Positions 8,571-53,094 of a DNA stretch of 64,000 nt are shown here, in pieces. The stretch's first letter is position 1; each line of letters begins with the position of its first letter. The position numbers and the translations under genes were made by a program. The notes under the pieces were generated by a model. That model ran no database searches, had not been told where the DNA came from, and was given only the letters and a program-made list of their open reading frames with translations. Source of the stretch: Aphrocallistes beatrix (Eukaryota > Porifera > Hexactinellida > Sceptrulophora > Aphrocallistidae); the NCBI GenBank assembly GCA_963281255.1, contig OY725488.1, positions 10,141,524-10,205,523 on the forward strand. Direction: 5' to 3'.

Positions 8571-9890
8571 CTAAACAACTTTATTACTTAGTACAATCGT
8601 AGAAGTTTTCTTTTTCTTACATTTCAGTTTCTTGCAGGGGAAATTTAGCACTGGTAGAACGAGGATAAATATCATCCGAATAGCGAGACCATAGAATTCG
8701 AAATTAAATGGTACTCTACTCTCTTGTACTAACAACTGATCTTGACGAGGTAGTAGCGTTAAAGTTTGGTTCTGTATTGTGGAATTACTATTGTGTGAAC
8801 TGTACAGACTTCGTAACGTGAGCATAGCCAAATAATCCCTGAATTCATGTTCTAGTTGATGCTCTTGAACGAAAGTATATATTATCGAGACGGATATGAT
8901 AGAGATTAGGATGTAGTAAGTGATGGAGAAGAACAGGAGACGCTTTTCTATTGGATGGACAGCCTGTGGCTTACCAGTTTTCTCTGCGCCTATCTGTACC
9001 TGGCTGTGTATTCTGTAGATGATGAGGACAATAACAGTGATTGTAACCCCACTTATCAATGTGTGAGGCACGTTCTCACAGATAATACTAACGATAATAT
9101 TCACCGGGACCGGAAATAACACCTCTTCTGATAGTTTGTACCCTGTGAATGGAATGAAAGGGCCTAGTGCACAGAGGAATGGGTACACCGCGCATATCGC
9201 AATTTCCACCACGATTATCACGATTCTGTTGCGTCTTGAGTAGAATAAATCTTTCATTGGGAAACTCACTGAAATTAGTATTAGCGTAACAGCCATAACA
9301 AACCACAGTCTGGTCGCGATGGCACTTATCGTTATGAGTGCTCCCATAATGTGGAGCTGTATGGGAGGGCTTTCATGTAAGGTGTCATAGTCTATGTCTC
9401 TATTCTCGCAATAGAAAATGTCTACTCCGATGACGTCAGGGATACCTATGATGCACGCTAGCAGCAGGTTGGATAGGATTCCTATGAAGATGGGATGGTG
9501 CTGGAATTTCATTGTCTTCCGGATCATAAACGAGCGGTAAATCGCGAAGATACTAATTCCAATGTTAATCAGTCCGATTATTCCATATATAACCCTTATT
9601 CCTATATATTTCCCCGTGGAAGGAACCAGCCCGCATTTAAGTTGACAGCTTTGCTTGTCGGCGGAGTATGTGTATGGATACGGACATAGTACAGTCACGT
9701 TAGATAAATCAAGTTCTTGAAGGAGAATTTCGTTCTGAGAAGTGTTAGGTGTTGGGAATATTTCTGCATAGAGAGGACCTCCAAGCGGCGATAACGATAT
9801 AGTCCAAGCTAGGCCAATACACACTACCGCCAGTATCCTCCAGATGCAATACTTCCCGCTTCTGAATCGTTCATTGGATCTATCCACCAT
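8571..9890 (-). CDS. Orphan seven-pass receptor-like protein A, intronless
   Basis: A 439-residue multi-pass membrane protein. Hydrophobic segments lie at about 17-38 (signal anchor or extra helix), 96-118, 134-152, 183-208, 222-246, 264-294, 318-342 and 402-417. A short ectodomain (39-95) between the first two segments has candidate N-glycosylation sites (NTS, NVT) and conserved Cys residues (CPYPY, CQLKCG). The C-tail is lysine-rich. The pattern of a Cys-rich stretch just before TM1, an HPIF block and a TRLWF helix faintly recalls the Frizzled class, but there is no Frizzled Cys-rich domain and no KTxxxW motif, so I do not assign it. It is clearly paralogous to the next gene upstream, in tandem and on the same strand. 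Ligand and pathway are unknown. Confidence 0.75.
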   Translation of the reverse strand: MVDRSNERFRSGKYCIWRILAVVCIGLAWTISLSPLGGPLYAEIFPTPNTSQNEILLQELDLSNVTVLCPYPYTYSADKQSCQLKCGLVPSTGKYIGIRVIYGIIGLINIGISIFAIYRSFMIRKTMKFQHHPIFIGILSNLLLACIIGIPDVIGVDIFYCENRDIDYDTLHESPPIQLHIMGALITISAIATRLWFVMAVTLILISVSFPMKDLFYSRRNRIVIIVVEIAICAVYPFLCALGPFIPFTGYKLSEEVLFPVPVNIIVSIICENVPHTLISGVTITVIVLIIYRIHSQVQIGAEKTGKPQAVHPIEKRLLFFSITYYILISIISVSIIYTFVQEHQLEHEFRDYLAMLTLRSLYSSHNSNSTIQNQTLTLLPRQDQLLVQESRVPFNFEFYGLAIRMIFILVLPVLNFPCKKLKCKKKKTSTIVLSNKVV

Positions 9891-10512: not shown

Positions 10513-11901
10513 TCATACATTTACCACGACTTTTTTATTATGGCGAATCTGTACATTTCCTTCTCTCCGTTTCTTACAGTTCATTTTGGAGCATGGAAAG
10601 TTTAGCATGGACAAGACGAAGATGAACATCATGCGTATGGTGAGGCCACGGATCTCAAATACGAATGGCTTGACTGAGTCTTGTACAAGCAGCTGGTCTT
10701 CCGGCATTAGCAATGATAGAGTTTGGTTGAGCATTGAAGAGCCGAATTTAGGGATATAAAAAGGACTTTGTAAAGTTATCTTTGCGAAATAGTCATTGAT
10801 TTGGTGCTGTAACTGGTTATCTCTTACAAAGTTGGTGATCAAAGAGACGGATATTACTAAGGTCATGAGGAAGAAAACGACAGAAAAAAAAATGAGACGC
10901 TTCTCAATAGGATGGACGGATTGTGGTTTTCCAGACATTCCTGCTCCTAACTGCATCTGGCTGTGAATCTTGTAGATGATGAGCAAAATAACAGTGAATG
11001 TGACTGAGCTTATGGTGAGATGGAATACAACTCCACAGACGATAGAGACGATTGGATTGGCTGAAGTAGGTAGCAACACATCCTCTGAGAGTTTGTATCC
11101 AGTAAACGGAGTGAAACGAGCCATGGTCAATATACATGGAACAAAGATACATATGATGATTTCTATGGTTAAAATCACAATTCTGTTGCGTACTGACCCG
11201 AACAAATCTCTCATTGGAAAACTCACTGATAGTAAGATCAAAACGAGGGCCATTAAGAACCACAATCTGGTGGAATTGCCAAATATTGTCACCAATGCAC
11301 CCATAACATTCAGTTGTATGGGAGGGTTTTCATGCAAGGTATCATAGTCGATCTCTCTATTCTCGCAATAGAATATATCGCTCCCAATTAAATCAGGTAT
11401 ACCCATTAAAAAGCTTAGTACTAGATTGAAAAATATTCCAACGATAATGGGATGATGCTGGAATCTCAGTTCTTTGCGGATTTTAATCGAACGATAGATA
11501 GCAAAGCTGGTAATCCCAGTGTTTATGAGCGTGAGTATGATGTATATAATTTTTTTTATAATATAGGTATAATAAAAATAAACAGTACCACATTTTAACT
11601 GACACATCTGCTTATCCGAGGAGTAGATGAATGGATACGGACAAAGAACAGTCATATTTGATAGGTCGAGCTTCTCTAGAAGGATTTCATTCTGCGAAAT
11701 GTTGGGTTTGGGGAGTATTTCGGAGTATAATGGACCGCCTAAAGGAGCTAGTGATATGATCCAAGCTGGGATGATGCAGAGAACAACCATTATCCTCCAA
11801 ATATAGTATTTGGTACGACTGATCTCATTGACCTGGAGACTCGACCTCGTAGCATTCACACTGCTGGTACTACCAACAACTGATAATCTTTTCTGATTCA
11901 T
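10513..11901 (-). CDS. Orphan seven-pass receptor-like protein B, intronless
   Basis: A 462-residue paralogue of the neighbouring receptor A. It shares the N-terminal hydrophobic segment with PLGGPLYSEI, the CPYPF and CQLKCG cysteines, the FYCENREIDYDTLHENPP loop, FTGYKLSEDVL and KPQSVHPIEKRL. It has the same eight hydrophobic segments and a basic tail with MNCKKRR. The N-terminus is about 20 residues longer, with MNQKRLS at the chosen start. The two genes are same-strand tandem duplicates 622 bp apart. A 109-bp relic of this gene lies at 19188-19296, so the family has been copied more than twice. The function is inferred only as receptor-like; ligand unknown. Confidence 0.75.
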   Translation of the reverse strand: MNQKRLSVVGSTSSVNATRSSLQVNEISRTKYYIWRIMVVLCIIPAWIISLAPLGGPLYSEILPKPNISQNEILLEKLDLSNMTVLCPYPFIYSSDKQMCQLKCGTVYFYYTYIIKKIIYIILTLINTGITSFAIYRSIKIRKELRFQHHPIIVGIFFNLVLSFLMGIPDLIGSDIFYCENREIDYDTLHENPPIQLNVMGALVTIFGNSTRLWFLMALVLILLSVSFPMRDLFGSVRNRIVILTIEIIICIFVPCILTMARFTPFTGYKLSEDVLLPTSANPIVSIVCGVVFHLTISSVTFTVILLIIYKIHSQMQLGAGMSGKPQSVHPIEKRLIFFSVVFFLMTLVISVSLITNFVRDNQLQHQINDYFAKITLQSPFYIPKFGSSMLNQTLSLLMPEDQLLVQDSVKPFVFEIRGLTIRMMFIFVLSMLNFPCSKMNCKKRREGNVQIRHNKKVVVNV

Positions 11902-12473: not shown

Positions 12474-15400
12474 AGTAATGGTAATACGAGGACACATGGT
12501 AATACGAGGATACATGGTAATACAGGGATACATGGTAATACAGGGATACATGGTAATACAGGGATACATGGTAATACAGGGATACATGGTAATACAGGGA
12601 TACATGGTAATACAGGGATACATGGTAATACAGGGATACATGATAATACAGGGATACATGGTAATACAGGGATACATGGTAATACAGGGATACATGGTAA
12701 TACAGGGATACATGGTAATACAGGGATACATGGTAATACAGGGATACATGGTAATACGAGGATACATGGTAATACAGGGATACATGGTAATACAGGGATA
12801 CATGGTAATACAGGGATACATGATAATACAGGGATACATGGTAATACAGGGATACATGGTAATACAGGGATACATGGTAATACAGGGATACATGGTAATA
12901 CGAGGATACATGATAATACAGGGATACATGGTAATACAGGGATACATGGTAATACGAGGATACATGGTAATACAGGGATACATGGTAATACAGGGATACA
13001 TGGTAATACAGGGATACATGGTAATACAGGGATACATGGTAATACGAGGATACATGGTAATACAGGGATACATGGTAATACAGGGATACATGGTAATACG
13101 AGGATACATGGTAATACAGGGATACATGGTAATACAGGGATACATGGTAATACGAGGATACATGGTAATACAGGGATACATGGTAATACGAGGATACATG
13201 ATAATACAGGGATACATGGTAATACAGGGATACATGGTAATACAGGGATACATGGTAATACGAGGATACATGGTAATACAGGGATACATGGTAATACGAG
13301 GATACATGGTAATACAGGGATACATGGTAATACAGGGATACATGGTAATACGAGGATACATGGTAATACAGGGATACATGGTAATACAGGGATACATGGT
13401 AATACGAGGATACATGGTAATACAGGGATACATGGTAATACGAGGATACATGGTAATACAGGGATACATGGTAATACAGGGATACATGGTAATACAGGGA
13501 TACATGGTAATACAGGGATACATGATAATACAGGGATACATGATAATACGAGGATACATGGTAATACGAGGATACATGATAATACGAGGATACATGGTAA
13601 TACAGGGATACATGGTAATACGAGGGATACATGGTAATACAGGGATACATGGTAATACGAGGATACATGGTAATACGAGGATACATGATAATACGAGGAT
13701 ACATGATAATACGAGGATACATGGTAATACGAGGATACATGATAATACGAGGATACATGGTAATACAGGGATACATGGTAATACGAGGGATACATGGTAA
13801 TACAGGGATACATGGTAATACGAGGATACATGGTAATACAGGGATACATGGTAATACGAGGATACATGGTAATACAGGGATACATGGTAATACGAGGATA
13901 CATGGTAATACAGGGATACATGGTAATACAGGGATACATGGTAATACAGGGATACATGGTAATACAGGGATACATGATAATACAGGGATACATGGTAATA
14001 CGAGGATACATGATAATACGAGGATACATGGTAATACGAGGATACATGATAATACGAGGATACATGATAATACAGGGATACATGGTAATACAGGGATACA
14101 TGGTAATACAGGGATACATGGTAATACGAGGGATACATGGTAATACAGGGATACATGGTAATACGAGGATACATGGTAATACAGGGATACATGGTAATAC
14201 AGGGATACATGGTAATACAGGGATACATGATAATACGAGGATACATGATAATACAGGGATACATGGTAATACAGGGATACATGGTAATACGAGGATACAT
14301 GGTAATACAGGGATACATGGTAATACGAGGATACATGGTAATACAGGGATACATGGTAATACAGGGATACATGGTAATACGAGGATACATGGTAATACAG
14401 GGATACATGGTAATACAGGGATACATGGTAATACAGGGATACATGGTAATACAGGGATACATGATAATACGAGGATACATGATAATACGAGGATACATGG
14501 TAATACGAGGATACATGATAATACGAGGATACATGATAATACAGGGATACATGATAATACAGGGATACATGGTAATACAGGGATACATGGTAATACAGGG
14601 ATACATGATAATACGAGGATACATGATAATACAGGGATACATGGTAATACGAGGATACATGGTAATACAGGGATACATGGTAATACAGGGATACATGGTA
14701 ATACAGGGATACATGGTAATACAGGGATACATGATAATACGAGGATACATGATAATACAGGGATACATGGTAATACAGGGATACATGGTAATACAGGGAT
14801 ACATGGTAATACAGGGATACATGGTAATACAGGGATACATGATAATACGAGGATACATGATAATACGAGGATACATGGTAATACGAGGATACATGATAAT
14901 ACGAGGATACATGATAATACAGGGATACATGATAATACAGGGATACATGGTAATACAGGGATACATGGTAATACAGGGATACATGATAATACGAGGATAC
15001 ATGATAATACAGGGATACATGGTAATACGAGGATACATGGTAATACAGGGATACATGGTAATACAGGGATACATGGTAATACAGGGATACATGGTAATAC
15101 AGGGATACATGATAATACGAGGATACATGATAATACAGGGATACATGGTAATACAGGGATACATGGTAATACAGGGATACATGGTAATACAGGGATACAT
15201 GGTAATACGAGGATACATGATAATACGAGGATACATGGTAATACGAGGATACATGATAATACGAGGATACATGATAATACAGGGATACATGATAATACAG
15301 GGATACATGGTAATACAGGGATACATGGTAATACGAGGGATACATGGTAATACAGGGATACATGGTAATACAGGGATACATGGTAATACGAGGATACATG

Positions 15401-16571
15401 ATAATACAGGGATACATGGTAATACGAGGATACATGATAATACGAGGATACATGGTAATACGAGGATACATGATAATACGAGGATACATGATAATACAGG
15501 GATACATGATAATACAGGGATACATGGTAATACAGGGATACATGGTAATACGAGGGATACATGGTAATACAGGGATACATGGTAATACAGGGATACATGG
15601 TAATACGAGGATACATGATAATACAGGGATACATGGTAATACAGGGATACATGGTAATACAGGGATACATGATAATACAGGGATACATGATAATACAGGG
15701 ATACATGGTAATACAGGGATACATGGTAATACAGGGATACATGGTAATACAGGGATACATGGTAATACAGGGATACATGGTAATACAGGGATACATGGTA
15801 ATACGAGGATACATGGTAATACGAGGATACATGGTAATACAGGGATACATGGTAATACAGGGATACATGGTAATACGAGGATACATGGTAATACGAGGAT
15901 ACATGGTAATACAGGGATACATGGTAATACGAGGATACATGGTAATACAGGGATACATGGTAATACAGGGATACATGGTAATACAGGGATACATGATAAT
16001 ACGAGGATACATGATAATACAGGGATACATGGTAATACAGGGATACATGGTAATACAGGGATACATGATAATACAGGGATACATGATAATACAGGGATAC
16101 ATGGTAATACAGGGATACATGGTAATACGAGGATACATGATAATACGAGGATACATGGTAATACAGGGATACATGATAATACAGGGATACATGGTAATAC
16201 GAGGATACATGGTAATACAGGGATACATGGTAATACAGGGATACATGGTAATACGAGGATACATGGTAATACAGGGATACATGGTAATACAGGGATACAT
16301 GGTAATACAGGGATACATGGTAATACAGGGATACATGGTAATACAGGGATACATGGTAATACAGGGATACATGATAATACGAGGGATACATGATAATACG
16401 AGGATACATGGTAATACAGGGATACATGATAATACAGGGATACATGATAATACAGGGATACATGGTAATACAGGGATACATGGTAATACGAGGATACATG
16501 ATAATACGAGGATACATGATAATACAGGGATACATGATAATACGAGGATACATGATAATACGAGGGATACA
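12474..16571. repeat. 4.1-kb minisatellite, about 227 copies of an 18-bp unit
   Basis: The unit is GGTAATACAGGGATACAT. Two sites vary, GG/GA at the start and CAGGG/CGAGG in the middle, giving four common variants. Seven units carry one extra G (CGAGGGATAC, near 13621, 13783, 14127, 15330, 15551, 16378 and 16561) and are 19 bp long. Higher-order periodicity is visible: a run of GATAATACGAGG variants at 14463 recurs at 14841 (378 bp, 21 units) and again near 15201 (20 units). All three minus frames and two plus frames lack stops in the 18-bp unit, which explains huge open frames on both strands. These encode only 6-residue periods (MYPCIT, VSLYYH, MVIQGY) and are not counted as genes. Confidence 0.97.
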
Positions 16572-22094: not shown

Positions 22095-23369
22095 TTAGTT
22101 GATAATGTTGAATTGTTTGAGTTGATTCGATTTATTTCTGCTAACAGTGACAATGGAACCAAAATCATTCACTGATATCCCAAAATGATTTTTGAACTGT
22201 CCTTTCTCAGATCGTTTCTCACCAAACTGAGTGAGTAGCTCTCCTTCATTGGAAAATATCTTCACTTTAGAGTCTCCTTGGTCTGTTACTAAGATGTTTT
22301 GTTGCTGATCTAGACAAAAACAAAAAGCATTGTCAATGCTATCTTTCTTAACAACACATCTTGTCAGAATTCCTTCTATAGAAAATGCTTGAATTGGAAA
22401 ATCAGTGTAGATTAGCAAAATGTAAAACAATCCTTGAGACAGAGAAATATCTCTGATTTCAGTTTCTTGTTGACAGAATTCAGTCTTGAGAGATATTCTG
22501 TTCTCTTCAATCAAATCTAGAGTTAACACTATTAGAGTCATTCCATTCAGTTTTCCGACATAAATATAAATATTCTCTGTACAGATACCTCCGAGATAAA
22601 AATCATAAGATTTAGAGCTTTCCTTCTTCTCAGTGAAGTTATTCAATTTCAGAATTGCTGTATCACACTGTACGTAGATTGATTGGTTGCAAAATATGAT
22701 ATTTTGTGGAAAATTCAATTTGACATCTTTCACAGATCTAATCCATTCTCCTTCTCTAGAGAAAATCTGAATTCTGTGATTCGGTTGTTCAGCTACATAA
22801 ATATTCTCATTCATAGGATGAGCCGCTATACCCCATGGATCATAGAGTTGATTGTCTCCAGTTCCTCTGTCGCATTTACTCCATTTCAGTTGGTACCGAG
22901 TATCTTCATTATAAACTAGATTCTGTTGATCATAACGACACATTCTATTTATACAATCTTTCAATTCATCCATTCTCCACGTTAACTTCACATTAGGAAT
23001 ATCAACATCCATTTCTCTTTTCACCGAATCGATCGAATCTGAAATATGGATTTTAGGTTTTGATGTTGGGTTCAATTCTTTGAACTTTTTTTCCATTTCT
23101 AATTTGTATGCCTCAATATCTTCAATTACTTTCTGAGTTTCAGTTTTCTTCCTATCCATTCCAGTACTCACCTCTTCCCAAATAATGTTCAATTCTCGGA
23201 TTATTTCTTCTTCTTTCTTTTCGATTAGACTTATCATTTCTTTGCTGACTCTTCTCACTTCCAACTTCTTCCTTTCTATCATTTCTCTAAACGAGTTCAG
23301 TTTACTCTGGAGTTTGTTACTCACTCCGAATAAACTAACAGGACCAGATCCTGGATCTGCTGTTGCCAT
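22095..23369 (-). CDS. Coiled-coil plus NHL propeller protein 1 (TRIM-like, no RING)
   Basis: A 424-residue protein. Residues about 20-120 are a charged coiled coil (FREMIERKKLEVRRVSKEM onward). A linker with PNVKLTWRMDELKDCINRMC (about 126-144) is nearly invariant among the paralogues. Residues about 165-420 form an NHL propeller: NENIYVAEQPNHRIQIFSREG and NILVTDQGDSKVKIFSNEGE are clear blades. This is the C-terminal half of a TRIM-NHL protein without RING or B-box, so ubiquitin-ligase activity is not expected; binding or scaffolding is inferred. MATADPGSGP at the start is shared by all copies. Single exon. Same-strand tandem with the 24.7-26.0 kb gene; a third copy is at 51.8-53.1 kb. Confidence 0.88.
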   Translation of the reverse strand: MATADPGSGPVSLFGVSNKLQSKLNSFREMIERKKLEVRRVSKEMISLIEKKEEEIIRELNIIWEEVSTGMDRKKTETQKVIEDIEAYKLEMEKKFKELNPTSKPKIHISDSIDSVKREMDVDIPNVKLTWRMDELKDCINRMCRYDQQNLVYNEDTRYQLKWSKCDRGTGDNQLYDPWGIAAHPMNENIYVAEQPNHRIQIFSREGEWIRSVKDVKLNFPQNIIFCNQSIYVQCDTAILKLNNFTEKKESSKSYDFYLGGICTENIYIYVGKLNGMTLIVLTLDLIEENRISLKTEFCQQETEIRDISLSQGLFYILLIYTDFPIQAFSIEGILTRCVVKKDSIDNAFCFCLDQQQNILVTDQGDSKVKIFSNEGELLTQFGEKRSEKGQFKNHFGISVNDFGSIVTVSRNKSNQLKQFNIIN

Positions 23370-24695: not shown

Positions 24696-25967
24696 TTATG
24701 AAAGGGAAAATATTTGCAATATATGACTCTTATTCCAGTCAACAGTAACCATAGTTCCAAAATCATCCACTGATACCCCAACAAGACCTTGAAAATGTCC
24801 TTTTTTAGATCCTTTCTCCCCGAATTGAGTGAGTAGATTCCCTTCATTGGAAAATGTCCTCACTTTAGAGTCTCCATAGTCTGCTACTAAGATGTTGTGT
24901 TGCTGATCTAGACAGAAACAAAAAGCGCTGTTAATGCTATCTTTCTTAACAACACATCTTGTCAGAGTGCCTTCTCTAGAAAATGCTTGAATTGGAAATT
25001 CTGTATTGAACAGAAAAATATAAAACAATTCTTGAAATAGAGATATATCTCCAATTTGAGTATCTTGTTTAGCGAATACCGTTTTGAGAGATATTCTGTT
25101 TTCTTCAACCAAGTCTAGAGTTAACACTATTAGAGTCATTCCATTCAGTTTCCCGACATAAATATGGATATTATCTGTACAGATACCTCTGAGAGGAAAA
25201 TCATAAGATATTGACTTTTCTTTCTTCTCAGTGGAATCATTCAATTTCAGAATTGATTTACTACATTGTACGTAAGTTGATTGGTTGTGAAGTAGAATAT
25301 TTTGTGGATTTTTCATTTCGTCATCTTTCACAGATCTGATCCATTCTCCTACTCTAGAGAAAATCTGAACTCTGTGATTCCATTGGTCAGCTACATATAT
25401 ATTCTCATTCATAGGATTAGTCGCTATACCCAATGGATTATAGAGTTGATTGTCTCCTCTTCCACCGCCGCACTTACTCCATTTCAGTTGATACCGAGTA
25501 TCTTCATTATAAACTAGATTCTGTTGATCACAACGACACATTCTATTTACACAATCTTCCAATTCATCCATTCTCCACGTTAACTTCACATTCGGAATAT
25601 CAATATCTATTTTTCTTTTCGCTTTTTCAATTGCTTTAGACAATTCGGGGAATTCTGTTTCAGTTTGATTGATCTTTTGAAATAACTCTTCAATCTCCTT
25701 TTTTCTATCTTCTAATTCTCCAATTACTGTCTGAGTTTCAGATGTATTCTTCTCCATTCTAGCACTCACTTCTTCCCAAATAGTATTCAATTCTCCGATT
25801 ATTGCTTCTTCTTTCTGTTCGATAAGCCGTCTCATTTCTTTGCTGACAGTTCGTACTTCCAACTTCTTCCTTTCGATCACTTCTCTAAACGAGTTTACTT
25901 TACTCTGGAATTTTTTACTCACTCCGAATAAACTAACAGGACCAGATCCTAGATCTGCTGTTGCCAT
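24696..25967 (-). CDS. Coiled-coil plus NHL propeller protein 2
   Basis: A 423-residue paralogue of the 22-kb gene. It has the MATADLGSGP start, coiled coil about residues 20-115 (VIERKKLEVRTVSKEMRRLI), the invariant PNVKLTWRMDELEDCVNRMC linker, and an NHL propeller from about 165 with NENIYVADQWNHRVQIFSRVG and NILVADYGDSKVRTFSNEG. The propeller has canonical VAD and HRVQIF signatures throughout and looks functional. Single exon, same strand as and about 1.3 kb upstream of NHL gene 1, consistent with tandem duplication. No RING, B-box, signal peptide or membrane segment. Confidence 0.88.
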   Translation of the reverse strand: MATADLGSGPVSLFGVSKKFQSKVNSFREVIERKKLEVRTVSKEMRRLIEQKEEAIIGELNTIWEEVSARMEKNTSETQTVIGELEDRKKEIEELFQKINQTETEFPELSKAIEKAKRKIDIDIPNVKLTWRMDELEDCVNRMCRCDQQNLVYNEDTRYQLKWSKCGGGRGDNQLYNPLGIATNPMNENIYVADQWNHRVQIFSRVGEWIRSVKDDEMKNPQNILLHNQSTYVQCSKSILKLNDSTEKKEKSISYDFPLRGICTDNIHIYVGKLNGMTLIVLTLDLVEENRISLKTVFAKQDTQIGDISLFQELFYIFLFNTEFPIQAFSREGTLTRCVVKKDSINSAFCFCLDQQHNILVADYGDSKVRTFSNEGNLLTQFGEKGSKKGHFQGLVGVSVDDFGTMVTVDWNKSHILQIFSLS

Positions 25968-40309: not shown

Positions 40310-40520
40310 ATATAAGCGCGCTTCGCTTTCTTGCGCAACTTGGGTGGCGGACACAAAGTGTCCGTCAGATGCGTCTTTTCGGCGCCTAGGTTCACATTGA
40401 TTAATTATAAGGTAAATCGCATCTCTAAATAGGTTTGTCTTACGGTTAAAGTCGATATCACTCGAAAACCACAAAAGTGGATGGTAATGATAGCGTCATA
40501 ACAGAATGATGAGTTTTTAT
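40310..40520 (-). repeat. Dispersed repeat with GCGCGCTTCGC end, copy 2 (inverted)
   Basis: The inverse of 32090-32335: AGCGCGCTTCGCTT, GGCGGACACAAAGTGTCCG (a small hairpin) and GGCGCCTAGGTTCACATTG, followed by the TTATAA joint and TCGATATCACTCGAAAA. Noncoding. Confidence 0.65.
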
Positions 40521-45643: not shown

Positions 45644-46022
45644 CTGCAGACGGAGGCCCATGATTTCAGGGAACTTGGAATTCTGAAGAGAAGCGTGAGT
45701 TTCACGAAGACGCCAGCTCGCATCCCGGTGTCGAGGTTGGAGGGACAGGTGAGGATGTATCCCAGCTGCTAGTTGCGCATGTACTCCTTCTCCCTCGTTA
45801 TGCCCGATCCCCCCGTGCGAGGCCAGTCCAGGAGTAGGGAGACCGGCTGAACAAGAAATGGTGATTGATCAGCTGTTCCTGTTCTAGGTCCGTCATGTCC
45901 ATGTGAAGGTAGCACTTTCTTAGAACTCGCCGGACAGATACGCCAACATATTCTGCAGAATCTCCTCCACAGCAATAGCTCCCACTGTTGCATGCAGTGA
46001 GAGCTGATAACCACGGATATTC
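45644..46022 (-). pseudogene. Phosphagen (creatine/arginine) kinase pseudogene fragment
   Basis: Minus-strand pieces in shifting frames: AVEEILQNMLAYLSGEF, then MDMTDLEQEQLINHHFLF, then a PVSLLLDWPRT block, then [19 protein letters not shown] and [12 protein letters not shown]. These follow the order of the kinase catalytic domain (the EQQQLIDDHFLF, LLLASGMARDWP and LGYVLTCPSNLGTG regions of the family). The stretch between WPDARG and LGYVL, with part of the catalytic core, is missing. At least three frameshifts and a stop. The CTGCAG at 45644 coincides with where a family exon ends. No intact copy is in the window. Confidence 0.88.
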
Positions 46023-46319
46023 CTTCTTTAAATTGGGGGATATTTGGTGTAAAGTTTATTAAGAATAAAAGAGTCCCTTAAATAAGTCTCTTAAGAATAT
46101 TATAATATATTATGGAATATCCTCAAAGGTACCAGGGAGATTTTCAATCTCAAACACTTATTAGTGTTTAGTGCGGTACAAATAATCTTAGAAACTATCA
46201 AAATGGAAATAAAAGGGAACGTCAATGAAATCCCTGCCACATAAAGGAACTTTCAGCCAATACATTACAATAGAACATTTGAAACTTAAATTCTGAATTA
46301 AGAATATTGAAATAATATA

Positions 46320-46471
46320 CAAATAATATAATACCACTCTCTAACACCTGACTAATAACTGCTGGTGAAATTCCAGATTCTAGGAGCACAGAAGTCAAGG
46401 TAGCTAATGTTGTTGCTGGACAAATATAATCGTATCCCACTTTCCAGTCACAATGTCTTTGCTCTAAAAAA
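46320..46471 (-). other. Possible isolated exon of unknown gene
   Basis: After an acceptor-like TTTTTTAG the minus strand reads EQRHCDWKVGYDYICPATT then LATLTSVLLESGISP and VLESG before a GTATT donor-like site. A second short open stretch at 46537-46700 (SWNLLNIKQTNPKIVNL) may be related. I recognise no family. It could be chance. Confidence 0.2.
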
Positions 46472-46770
46472 GTTATTTTATGATCAAACTGATTGATAAT
46501 AAGTGACGTACAGGTTATAACACACTTTAATTGTTGTTAACGTTCTGGACTGAAATTGGTTAAGCCATTCAATATAATAATATTTGGGAATGTGGACTTT
46601 CTAAGTGGTTTCAAATTGACTATTTTAGGATTAGTTTGCTTAATATTTAGCAAATTCCATGATCGTGAACTTAATTTTTCTTCTCCATTGAATTCATGAG
46701 TATAACCGTAGATCAATGACAATTTTTTAGGAGAAATTAGAAAACAATAAACTATTTCGTTGATATCACC

Positions 46771-46850
46771 AGGCGCCCGCAGGCCGATTCTACGGTCGCA
46801 CTGTCCATAAACCGCGTAGCGCAAGTAAGCGAAGCGCGCTTGTAAATTAT
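46771..46850 (+). repeat. Dispersed repeat tail, copy 3
   Basis: CAGGCGCCCGCAGGCC, CACTGTCCATAAACCGC and GTAGCGCAAGTAAGCGAAGC match the tail part of 32250-32335 with divergence. Confidence 0.55.
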
Positions 46851-47001
46851 AATAGTGCAAGGTAGCGATTAGTCATGGAAGGAATGTGTTGTGAAATAAG
46901 AAGTTTCCTATTTGGGCAAATGTTATAAGTTAATATCAAACAACAATTGTAGTATCAAACAACGAATCCATTCAAACTAAAATTATACACAAATTATATT
47001 G

Positions 47002-47628
47002 TTATTGACAGCAGCACCCGATATTCCATCCATTTTCTGAGCTCTGGCGCAGATCTACACTCGTTGAGTTATGTTTATCGTGCATTTGATTGGCTGAATT
47101 CTTAACGACCAAACGTACAGCAGTCTCGAACGCCTCATTAAGATTCGTGCCATCTTTCGCACTTATCTTGAAGCAGCATATTGAATCGTTGTTCTGACAC
47201 CATTCGCTGATTTCAGCTGCGCTCACCCGTTTCAAGCATTCAGGACAGTCAGCTTTGTTCGCCAGGACTATAAAAGGGTAATTCTCTAAACCTCCGACGT
47301 CTGAGTAGCGTAGAAATTCCTTCTTCCACATATCCAAATTCTCAAAGCTAGCTCGATCATCCATTGCGAATGTTAGTATGCAGCAGTCAGATTGTCGGTA
47401 GTACAAAGTACGAATAGCTCGAAACCGTTCTAGCCCCGATGTGTCCCATATCTGGACTGTGAATCGCCCCAAGTCCATTTCTACCCCTTTATTCATGTAA
47501 TTGACGCCTATCGTTGCAGGCTGTTTCGAGTCAAAACTGCCGCTGACGTATTTGTCCATAAGACACGACTTTCCAACTCCGGAGTCTCCAATCAGAATTA
47601 CTTTGAGTTGACAGCTCTTCGCAGCCAT
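47002..47628 (-). CDS. Rab9-like small GTPase with Leu at the catalytic Gln site, intronless
   Basis: A 208-residue Rab. Rab9 works in late endosome to trans-Golgi transport. The P-loop GDSGVGKS is at 14-21, the switch I Thr (TIG) at 39, NKAD and SAKDG are present, and the C-terminus ends in CCCQ for prenylation. MAAKS at the start, NKGVEMD, YYRQSDCCILTF and NLDMWKKEF match Rab9. The switch II motif reads WDTSGLERF instead of WDTAGQERF, so the residue equal to Rab9 Gln66 is Leu, encoded CTA. In Rab9 and other Rabs that change blocks GTP hydrolysis, so this protein is inferred to be GTP-locked or to hydrolyse very slowly. No introns, so it may be a retrocopy. Confidence 0.92.
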   Translation of the reverse strand: MAAKSCQLKVILIGDSGVGKSCLMDKYVSGSFDSKQPATIGVNYMNKGVEMDLGRFTVQIWDTSGLERFRAIRTLYYRQSDCCILTFAMDDRASFENLDMWKKEFLRYSDVGGLENYPFIVLANKADCPECLKRVSAAEISEWCQNNDSICCFKISAKDGTNLNEAFETAVRLVVKNSANQMHDKHNSTSVDLRQSSENGWNIGCCCQ

Positions 47629-47884
47629 TTAGAGCTTATTAATTAATATAGGAATAAGTTAAAATAAAATGTTACACTTTAGCATTTATATCAGAATTAG
47701 GATGGTGCTAAGGGTCAGTTGGTGTAGAAGGAAGTTCTAGAATTCCAGCACTTCCAATTATAGGCATTTGGACGAGAGATAAACATCATCAACATCAGTA
47801 AACATCATTAAAGTTTATAGATTTATTAATCTATAAGCTTTAATGATGTTTATAATTCAGACAGACATATTTAGAGATGTCTCC

Positions 47885-47985
47885 GTTATGATTAATCAAT
47901 GTGAGCCCAGGCGCCCAAAGGGTGCCTCCGGCAGACACTGTGTCCGCCAGCCTCGCAGCGCAAGCAAGTGAAGTGCGCTTGTATA
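47885..47985 (+). repeat. Dispersed repeat tail, copy 4
   Basis: ATTAATCAATGTGAGCCC, GGCGCCCAAAGGGTGCC, GACACTGTGTCCGCCAG and GCAGCGCAAGCAAGTGAAG, closely matching the tail at 32235-32335. Also contains the GGACAC hairpin. A 30-bp ATTAAAG/CTTTAAT inverted repeat lies just before, at about 47806-47850. Confidence 0.6.
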
Positions 47986-48049
47986 CATAATAAACGATAG
48001 AGAATCAGTGGATAGTAACCAAGAGCTATGAAACAAATAGATGCAAGCT

Positions 48050-48877
48050 GTTAACACCCTCAGAAATAACAACTGCTCTGTAGTCGTCGATTAGAGCTAT
48101 TCCTTGCGGATTCTGAAAACTCACTCCATATCCTGGTTCACAAAAGGTGTTTAGAAGAGTTCCATCTTTTCTGAATATTCGTATATAGTCATTGTATTTA
48201 TGATTGATCTATATGTTCCCGGAAATGTCAAGGCAGAAGAAACTTCCAATGCAAGGTATCGTCAGAGATCCTAATTTTTTTCCGGCATAGGAATAAGTGC
48301 GGATACACCCCAGAGCCAACACATACACTTCTTCAGGCATCAGTTTGACATCAGCTGGATGATATAATGAATGGTCAGAGATTTTTGTTGATAGTATAGA
48401 TCCCTGTCTAGAATTTGAACGCGATTGTTCCAGCAATCAGCAACAAAGACATCTCCGTTAGATGAGATGGCAAGCTGCTTAGGACAATTGAACTTACCAA
48501 TAGTCTGCCCTTTCCCTCCTTGCTTCCCAATGAAATGGATTCCTTTTGCATATTTTCTGAAATGCATGACAGAGTGGGTTACAATGTCTGCCAGATAGAT
48601 ATTATTCTCGTGGATAGCAATACCCCCTGGTTCACTGATAGGTGTGAACCTTCTAATGAACTTAGCAACTTCTGAAAAATTGATAGTATACAGATAGGAT
48701 TGGATTGTACGACATATATCTCATAGTGTTTGGATCAATTGCGATGGTTTTAGGATCGTTTAATTGTCCTATGCCTGTTCCTTTCCTTGCTACTTCTATC
48801 ATGTGGTTGAAATTATGGTCAAGATGTGGCTTAGGTGTGGTGGGGGATTGTGCTGCACCTGGAAATCTACTTGTCAT
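48050..48877 (-). pseudogene. NHL-repeat protein, segmental copy A, frameshifted
   Basis: Start at 48877 (MTSRFPGAAQSPTTPKPHLD). Blades seen in broken frames include IAIDPNTMRYMSYNP (damaged against copy B REIYVVQSNP), GDVFVADCWNNRVQILDRD, DVKLMPEEVYVLALGC, then FFCLDISGNI. At least two frameshifts and a stop. The N-terminus is better here than in copy B at 59.7-60.25 kb, and the C-terminal blades survive (LNTFCEPGYGVSFQNPQGIA). Belongs to the same NHL type as the 20.3-kb gene. Confidence 0.85.
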
Positions 48878-51825: not shown

Positions 51826-53094
51826 TCACAAACGAGAGAATAGTTTCAACATTGTTCCTCTGATCTGTTGAACAGTGACAATATCTCGCAATTCACTCAA
51901 ACATATTCCAAATATTGCAGGAGAAGATCCAATTTCGGATATTCTTTCACCGACCTGAGTGAGTAGCTCTCCTTCATTTGAAAATATCTTCACTTTAGAG
52001 TCTCCACAGTCTGTTACTAAAATATTCTGTTGCTGATCTAGACAGAAACAATTAGCACTGTTAATGCTATCTTTCTTAACAACACATCTTGTCAGAATGC
52101 CTTTTCTAGAAAATGCTTGAATTGGAAATTCTGTTTTGAATAGCAAAATGTAAAATAATTCTTGAGATAGAGATATATCTCTGATTCTAGTATCTTGTTT
52201 ACAGAATTCAGTATTAAGAGATATTCTCGTTTGTTGAAACAATTCTAAAGTTAACACTATTAGATTCATTCCCTCATGTTGACCAACATAAATATGAATA
52301 TCATCTGTACAGATACCTGCGATAAAATAAAAAAATGAATTAGAATTTTCAGTTTCCTCAAGGGATTTATTCAATTTCAGAATTGATCTATTGCACTGTA
52401 CGTAAATTGATTGTTTGTGAAAAAGAATATTTTCTGGACTTTTTATGTTCTCATCATTCACAGACCTGATCCATTCTCCTTCTCTAGAGAAAATCTGAAC
52501 TCTGTTATTCCCACTATCAGCAACATAAATATTCTTATCTATAGGGTTAGTCGCTATACCACATGGAAAATAGAGTTGATTGTCTTCTCTTCCTACTTCG
52601 CATTTACTCCATTTCAGTTGAAACCGAGTATTTTCATTATAAACTAGAATCTGTTGATCACAACGACACATTCTATTTATACAATCTTCCAATTCATCCG
52701 TTTTCCATGTTAACTTCACATTAGGAATATCAAAATCCATTTCTCCTTTTAAGGAATTGAGTTTCTCTGAAATATCAAATAGTGGACCACTTCTTGGCTT
52801 CAATTCTTTGAATATTTGCTCCATTTCTTTCGCCTTTGTTTCAAGAACTCCAACTTGAGTCTGAATGTTAGTATTTTTATCCATTTTGGCATTCACCTTT
52901 TTCCAAATAGTGTCCAATACTCGGATTATTGCTTCTTCTTTATATTCGATAAGACTTCTCATTTCTCTGCTGACTTTTCTTACTTCCAACTTCTTCTTTT
53001 CAATCATTTCTCTAAACGAGTTCATCTTACTCTGGAGTTTATTACTCATTCCGAATGAACTAGCAGGACCAGATCCTGGAAATGCTGTTGCCAT
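51826..53094 (-). CDS. Coiled-coil plus NHL propeller protein 3
   Basis: A 422-residue third member of the family at 22-26 kb. It has MATAFPGSGPASSFGMS, coiled coil about 20-115 (MIEKKKLEVRKVSREMRSLI), linker PNVKLTWKTDELEDCINRMC, and a propeller with DKNIYVADSGNNRVQIFSREG and NILVTDCGDSKVKIFSNEGE. Same single-exon design, normal length, open frame. It is about 26 kb from its paralogues, on the same strand. The upstream region keeps family similarity, but the TATA-like box is altered (TATCGTAAAA). Role inferred as a TRIM-NHL-like binding protein without ligase domains. Confidence 0.88.
   Translation of the reverse strand: MATAFPGSGPASSFGMSNKLQSKMNSFREMIEKKKLEVRKVSREMRSLIEYKEEAIIRVLDTIWKKVNAKMDKNTNIQTQVGVLETKAKEMEQIFKELKPRSGPLFDISEKLNSLKGEMDFDIPNVKLTWKTDELEDCINRMCRCDQQILVYNENTRFQLKWSKCEVGREDNQLYFPCGIATNPIDKNIYVADSGNNRVQIFSREGEWIRSVNDENIKSPENILFHKQSIYVQCNRSILKLNKSLEETENSNSFFYFIAGICTDDIHIYVGQHEGMNLIVLTLELFQQTRISLNTEFCKQDTRIRDISLSQELFYILLFKTEFPIQAFSRKGILTRCVVKKDSINSANCFCLDQQQNILVTDCGDSKVKIFSNEGELLTQVGERISEIGSSPAIFGICLSELRDIVTVQQIRGTMLKLFSRL

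Follow-up and report, generated by a model that had tools for sequence, protein, structure and literature searches.

Rab proteins in which the switch II Gln is replaced by Leu are widely used as 'active' forms in cell biology, and a gene in the window (the whole 64-kb stretch of DNA that was analysed) carries this replacement naturally in a Rab9-like GTPase. In the original prediction, the protein was proposed to be locked in its GTP-bound state. Does Leu66 make this Rab9 permanently active, or is it one part of a wider change in the protein? The gene is compared here with three relatives from the same genome, named after their contigs: a close sister (C11), a further Rab9 (C9) and a Rab7-like gene (C10).

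The frame encodes 208 residues and runs on the minus strand from ATG (starting at position 47628) to TAA without an internal stop (Table 1), and its product matches the Pfam Ras family (E 4e-43). Switch II, read directly from the codons of this intact frame (TGG GAC ACA TCG GGG CTA GAA CGG TTT), is W61-D-T-S64-G-L66-E-R-F, and the predicted Gln-to-Leu replacement (WDTSGLERF, CTA) is thus present. The family-level Rab motifs G1 to G5 are all found (GDSGVGKS, Thr39, WDTxG, NKAD and SAK), Asp62 and Gly65 are retained along with Thr39 and the G1, G4 and G5 motifs, and the terminal cysteines, likewise a family-level Rab feature, are present as CCCQ, which we take to belong to the prenylation motif class. 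The claim that the other G motifs and the C-terminal cysteines are intact therefore holds for the nucleotide-binding motifs and for CCCQ, but not for the switch I effector motif, which is IGVNYMNK instead of the IGVEFLNK of C9, C11 and Rab9A. The Rab9-type switch surface (IGVEFLN and SLRTPFYRG, picked as a criterion from the present alignment and not a published definition) is kept by the C11 sister and C9, whereas the window copy reads IGVNYMN and AIRTLYYRQ. A tRNA scan of the whole window returned none, and two Rfam matches up to E 0.5 in 46000-48800, both far under their gathering scores, were taken as chance.

Table 1. Features of the Rab9-like locus, in positions of the window.
Feature	Position	Strand	Basis
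Rab9-like coding sequence, single exon, stop included	47002..47628	-	ORF, structure matches, Pfam, tree
P-loop (G1) GDSGVGKS, residues 14-21, intact	47566..47589	-	Motif reading
Residues 22-80, with 17/22 of the window-copy changes	47389..47565	-	Omega ~1.0-1.6 vs 0.12 in C11 (equal-age assumption)
Switch I Thr39 (G2), intact, context TIGV	47512..47514	-	Motif reading
Leu66 (CTA) replacing the switch II Gln; CAG in the C11, C9 and C10 relatives	47431..47433	-	Codon comparison
Ser64 (TCG); Gly in the C11 sister, Ala in the C9 Rab9	47437..47439	-	Codon/alignment comparison
G4 NKAD, residues 124-127, intact	47248..47259	-	Motif reading
G5 SAK, residues 156-158, intact; preceding E154 and T155 changed to K and I	47155..47163	-	Motif reading and alignment
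C-terminal CCCQ, predicted prenylation site	47005..47016	-	Motif reading
5' flank homologous to the C11 sister, 127 bp, 74% identity, 3 gaps	47629..47755	-	BLASTN, MAFFT
3' flank with homology to the C11 sister, 84 aligned columns at 75% identity, 3 gaps, of which the first starts at the stop codon	46917..47001	-	BLASTN, MAFFT

The assignment to the Rab9 subfamily was borne out. Among 893 matches to solved structures, Rab9A and Rab9B take the first six places, with Rab9A as the best (E 2e-58). The two top chains, 4qxa and 7e1t (both Rab9A), carry Leu at the equivalent of position 66 in the alignment, which may slightly flatter their rank; other Rab9A chains come directly after. In a tree of 28 rows, 22 of which are further frames of the same genome chosen from the survey described below, the five Rab9 rows (window copy, C11, C9, Rab9A and Rab9B) form one clade (support 97/92; 98% of 200 bootstrap trees). 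Within it, the window copy and C11 are paired at 100/100 and joined by C9 at 97/82, and the C10 Rab7-like row lies outside. The window copy shares this clade and its best matches with Rab9A and Rab9B, but differs from them at 17 columns that are invariant in C9, C11, Rab9A and Rab9B, and its terminal branch is 0.33 vs 0.013 for C11. Rab9 was reported from animals and one choanoflagellate (PMC2693434) and, in another analysis, from fungi too (PMC3425129). The source of the window is likely an animal or a near relative of animals.

A DNA search of the genome (100.5 Mb, 28 contigs) found two loci, the window copy on contig C1 and its sister on C11 (L002/L012), and none other at the sensitivity of the search. 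The sister shares a single-exon coding region, homologous short flanks and 72% protein and 79% DNA identity with the window copy, but retains Gln66 and Rab9-like switches (WDTGGQERF, IGVEFLNK, PFYRG) and ends in GCCS. The C9 Rab9 and the C10 Rab7-like gene both read WDTAGQERF, and the coding regions of all three relatives are single-exon frames with CAG at the Gln codon. A canonical spliced Rab9 with WDTAGQERF had been named as something to look for; the C9 Rab9 has the motif, but its coding region is unspliced. BLASTN of C9 against the window copy gave no coding match and a single 19-base match on the opposite strand, outside the gene.

The homology between the window copy and C11 covers 846 aligned positions (BLASTN), with 80% identity in the coding region in the MAFFT alignment. 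In this alignment, the 624 coding columns are free of gaps, whereas the 211 flanking columns contain six gap events. One of these starts at the stop codon, the site of a one-residue difference in protein length; here BLASTN alternatively places a single 3-base gap at the last codon. The absence of introns had suggested a retrocopy. This origin is unsupported, as the coding regions of the C9 Rab9 and the C11 sister are equally intronless and homology to the sister runs into both flanks (127 bp upstream and 84 columns downstream). Intronlessness is in any case weak evidence for retroposition here, because 41 of the 50 Rab-type frames surveyed likewise cover 150 or more aligned residues in a single frame; these single-exon calls cover coding regions, and introns elsewhere would need transcripts to see. 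No poly-A was found by eye in the 3' flank, but at a pairwise dS of 0.43-0.53 poly-A and target-site marks could have decayed.

At codon 66, CTA is two bases away from the CAG of C11, C9 and C10, and at codon 64, TCG is two bases away from the GGG of the C11 sister. Because of these two-base differences and the 16 other changed columns that are otherwise invariant, it is very unlikely that the Leu codon arose from an error in sequencing or assembly, and the view of a settled variant is upheld. That the locus reflects such an error or misassembly, or merely an allele of the C11 gene, is hardly conceivable, since the two copies lie on separate contigs, are 79% identical in DNA and show no colinear BLASTN similarity outside the 846-column block.

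How strongly the gene is constrained depends on the part of the protein considered. The pairwise dN/dS between the window copy and C11 is 0.32 (NG86), 0.36 (LWL85), 0.38 (YN00) or 0.41 (ML). A free-branch codon model gave an omega of 1.20 for the window branch, and neither omega = 1 (P 0.91) nor equality with C11 (P 0.28) was rejected. The fitted branches to C9 and C10 were saturated in the codon model; therefore, all branch-specific results at the codon level rest on the assumption that both copies are equally old. Equal neutral time, though assumed, is a fair constraint because both copies lie in one genome and stem from one duplication. Under this assumption, the whole-gene omega is 0.60 for the window copy and 0.15 for C11 (P 0.0016), and omega = 1 is rejected for the window copy (P 0.03). 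For residues 22-80, which we take to comprise switch I, the interswitch and switch II and whose border was set after the data had been seen, the omega of the window copy is 1.04 in a separate fit (P 2e-5) or 1.60 in a joint fit (P 1e-5) vs 0.12 for C11; the excess of the joint value above 1 is not significant (P 0.083). Outside this stretch, omega is 0.24 (separate fit; C11 0.27) or 0.21 (joint fit), significantly below 1 (P 1.5e-4 and 5e-6), and this part of the protein is therefore regarded as constrained. A second border, residues 34-81, which we presume to be the switch positions, gave 1.65 inside and 0.30 elsewhere, again under equal age. Thus, if both copies are equally old, the switch stretch appears to have been rewritten while the remaining protein stayed constrained, and the switch region would be either released or under positive selection. 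The dN/dS comparison that had been proposed as a check hence came out divided: under equal age, the region outside the switches shows constraint and residues 22-80 do not, and the free-branch model does not reject neutrality.

The rate of evolution at residues 22-80, which equals or exceeds the neutral one, would, together with the free-branch result, fit a decaying duplicate on its way to a pseudogene in which the switch region was lost first. Such a course is unlikely in the light of the remaining gene. The frame is open and free of gaps over its 624 coding columns vs the six gap events of the flanks, and in neutral simulations from the C11 sequence (substitutions only), 38 of 2000 runs preserved an open frame at 0.20 changes per site and 21 of 2000 did so at 0.25. 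Moreover, under the equal-age assumption the protein outside the switch region has an omega significantly lower than 1, and the window copy retains Thr39, Asp62, Gly65 and the motifs G1, G4 and G5. On the sequence evidence, a natural Gln-to-Leu paralogue of Rab9 is real and is kept as a gene.

The replacement changes are distributed just as unevenly. With C9, Rab9A and Rab9B as outgroups, the 58 differences between the window copy and C11 were polarised to the window branch in 22 cases and to C11 in nine (binomial P 0.03), and 27 stayed unpolarised. In 17 of the 22 window changes vs two of the nine C11 changes, the column is invariant across C9, Rab9A, Rab9B and the respective other copy; 13 of the 17 window changes of this kind lie within residues 26-79, including E43N, F44Y, L45M, Q66L, P75L and G79Q. 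One 58-residue stretch (residues 22-79), spanning switch I to switch II, holds 17 of the 22 window changes, a clustering reached in none of 20,000 permutations; the same test on C11 gave five of nine changes, as high in 11,680 of 20,000 permutations. From residues 20-80 to residues 81-207, pairwise dN falls from 0.37 to 0.10, while dS is 0.55 in both parts. Gene conversion as the source of the uneven divergence was ruled out, since dS is alike in the two parts.

What does this mean for the activity of the protein? In the Ras picture, the switch II Gln drives GTP hydrolysis, and this premise was applied to Gln66 in the original prediction. It finds support in the engineered Rab9A Q66L, which has served as a GTP-locked construct, binding NDE1 in pull-downs and recruiting HPS3 (PMC6639074), and which is treated as constitutively active elsewhere (PMC10519607). 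On the other hand, in complexes of Rab33 and Rab1 with TBC-domain GAPs, the catalytic Gln comes from the GAP, and the use of Rab Gln-to-Leu mutants as 'active' forms is disputed (PMC3919270, PMC3919269). The effects described in these papers differ between Rabs. In Rab1 and Rab35, mutation of the Gln shifts basal hydrolysis less than about 1.5-fold and impairs both exchange by GEFs (DrrA, DENND1) and GAP action (PMC3919270); TRAPP still activates the Rab1 mutant, and the Rab35 mutant failed to support its pathway in cells (PMC3919270, PMC3919269). In Rab5, the mutation lowers basal hydrolysis more than fivefold, and GEF and GAP action are kept (PMC3919270, PMC3919269). In melanocytes, wild-type and Q66L Rab9 were both reported to raise pigmentation (PMC4690521).

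A natural precedent is Rab25, which reads WDTAGLE and is reported to retain GTPase activity (PMC3039820). Rab25 shares a natural Leu at the equivalent position with the window protein, but is classed with Rab11 (PMC7818423) and not with Rab9, for which reason the Leu presumably arose independently in the two. The portions of the literature searched on Rab9 and on the switch Gln that were available contain no report of a natural Rab9 Q66L.

According to the original prediction, the window copy would be a naturally constitutively active Rab9, in which Leu66 blocks hydrolysis and the protein stays GTP-bound on late endosomes and engages Rab9 effectors. The Leu typical of constitutively active Rabs is present, the nucleotide motifs are intact, and the Rab9A chains 4qxa and 7e1t bear Leu at the same position; the precedents on hydrolysis, however, conflict. 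The engineered Rab9A Q66L has the identical residue in the same subfamily, but it is a single change on a normal Rab9 surface, whereas the surface around Leu66 is changed as well in the window copy, in switch I and switch II residues that are invariant in the other Rab9s compared. Because these changes accompany Leu66, an otherwise normal GTP-locked Rab9 becomes less likely. In addition, the DENN protein DENND2 is named as the GEF of Rab9a (PMC10519607), and exchange on Rab35 by DENND1 requires the Gln (PMC3919270). By analogy, Leu66 could therefore hinder loading of the Rab no less than its unloading. Always-on activity is thus possible, but it is not the best-supported reading, and we consider it rather improbable.

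It is more probable, in our judgement, that the window copy is the fast-evolving member of a lineage-specific pair of Rab9 duplicates, alongside which the genome retains a more canonical Rab9 (C9). Instead of being simply locked on, it would have diverged into a re-wired (or loosened) Rab9 whose nucleotide cycle and effector set are altered. The frame, the nucleotide-binding motifs and the terminal cysteines are kept, and the surface from switch I to switch II carries many changes in columns that are otherwise invariant, including Gln66 to Leu. Such a protein would still bind guanine nucleotide and be prenylated and attached to membranes. Its Rab cycle may be altered: hydrolysis or turnover would probably be slowed, and the ancestral Rab9 GEF, GAP and effectors would recognise the protein less well or differently. 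The gene suggests how a Rab duplicate can preserve its nucleotide pocket and its anchor and yet acquire a different effector face. Together with the Gln-bearing sister in the same genome, it forms a matched pair in which it can be asked whether the Gln serves hydrolysis, GEF loading or neither.

The switch II Gln was also surveyed across the Rab set of this one genome. From 136 genome matches, 99 fell inside 80 fetched regions and 37 outside (mostly weak, partial or without switch II). They contained 63 frames with a complete G3 starting with WD, of which 50 remained after removal of seven Rho/Rac-type and six Arf/Arl-type frames by motif. Gln is present in 33 of these 50 and another residue in 17 (L, E and H three each, M and N two each, V, S, G and T one each), with the column assignment uncertain in several of the 17 because the frames are so diverged (WDQVYNQRS, WDVVGNDTL, WDMHGGDPC); 11 of the 17 keep WDTxGxE, as read from the list. 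The survey is a lower bound, long single-exon frames are over-represented because the regions were picked by strong matches, and some of the frames may be exons or pseudogenes. With the uncertain columns included in the count, loss of the Gln looks recurrent in this Rab set.

It is tempting to speculate that the switch face of the window copy was rebuilt by positive selection into a new regulator and effector surface that works without the intrinsic Gln, as one case of a genome-wide drift to Gln-independent Rabs, as if the GAPs and GEFs of this lineage had made the Gln dispensable. This idea is quite unlikely to hold. Two further frames of the survey carry Leu: L029 (C3:6543800-6545300) reads WDTAGLERF and has a diverged P-loop (GESSSGKS), and L078 (C18:2999100-3000500) is an exon-like frame that reads WDTSGLGRM; Rab1A is the best solved match of both. 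For L029, no close kin was found, the best other match having 39% identity.

Several other elements were observed in the window. A short dispersed repeat ending AGCGCAAGYAAGYGAAGYGCGCTTGTA lies on both sides of the Rab9-like gene in the same orientation (46802-46844 and 47941-47983) and also at 1594-1620 and 40311-40337, so that the pattern was matched four times in the window. When 46765-46860 was searched against the genome, 991 first-look candidates came up, and the 40 that were scored matched. Around the C11 and C9 copies, no such flanking pair was found in a search that a lone copy would escape. About 170 bp upstream of the Rab9-like ATG, a 25-bp inverted repeat (96% complementary, 4-bp loop) occupies 47799-47852; its only Rfam match is to a microRNA, far under the gathering score. 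At 12478-16571, an 18-bp unit (ATGGTAATACAGGGATAC) is repeated about 227 times in a minisatellite that is open in several frames on both strands and whose ORFs of up to 1377 residues are probably spurious.

Ten other frames of the window were scanned against Pfam (E 1e-5), and eight matched: two NHL-repeat proteins, a WD40 protein, an AMP-binding enzyme, a fucosyltransferase, a STELLO glycosyltransferase-like protein, a DDE_3 transposase and a reverse transcriptase. Two frames on the reverse strand (8571-9890 and 10513-11901; 439 and 462 residues) are alike and have the look of multi-pass membrane proteins by eye, the first having no Pfam match at E 1e-5. Three similar single-exon frames starting with MATA lie at 22095-23369, 24696-25967 and 51826-53094 on the reverse strand, and the first and third of them match NHL repeats.
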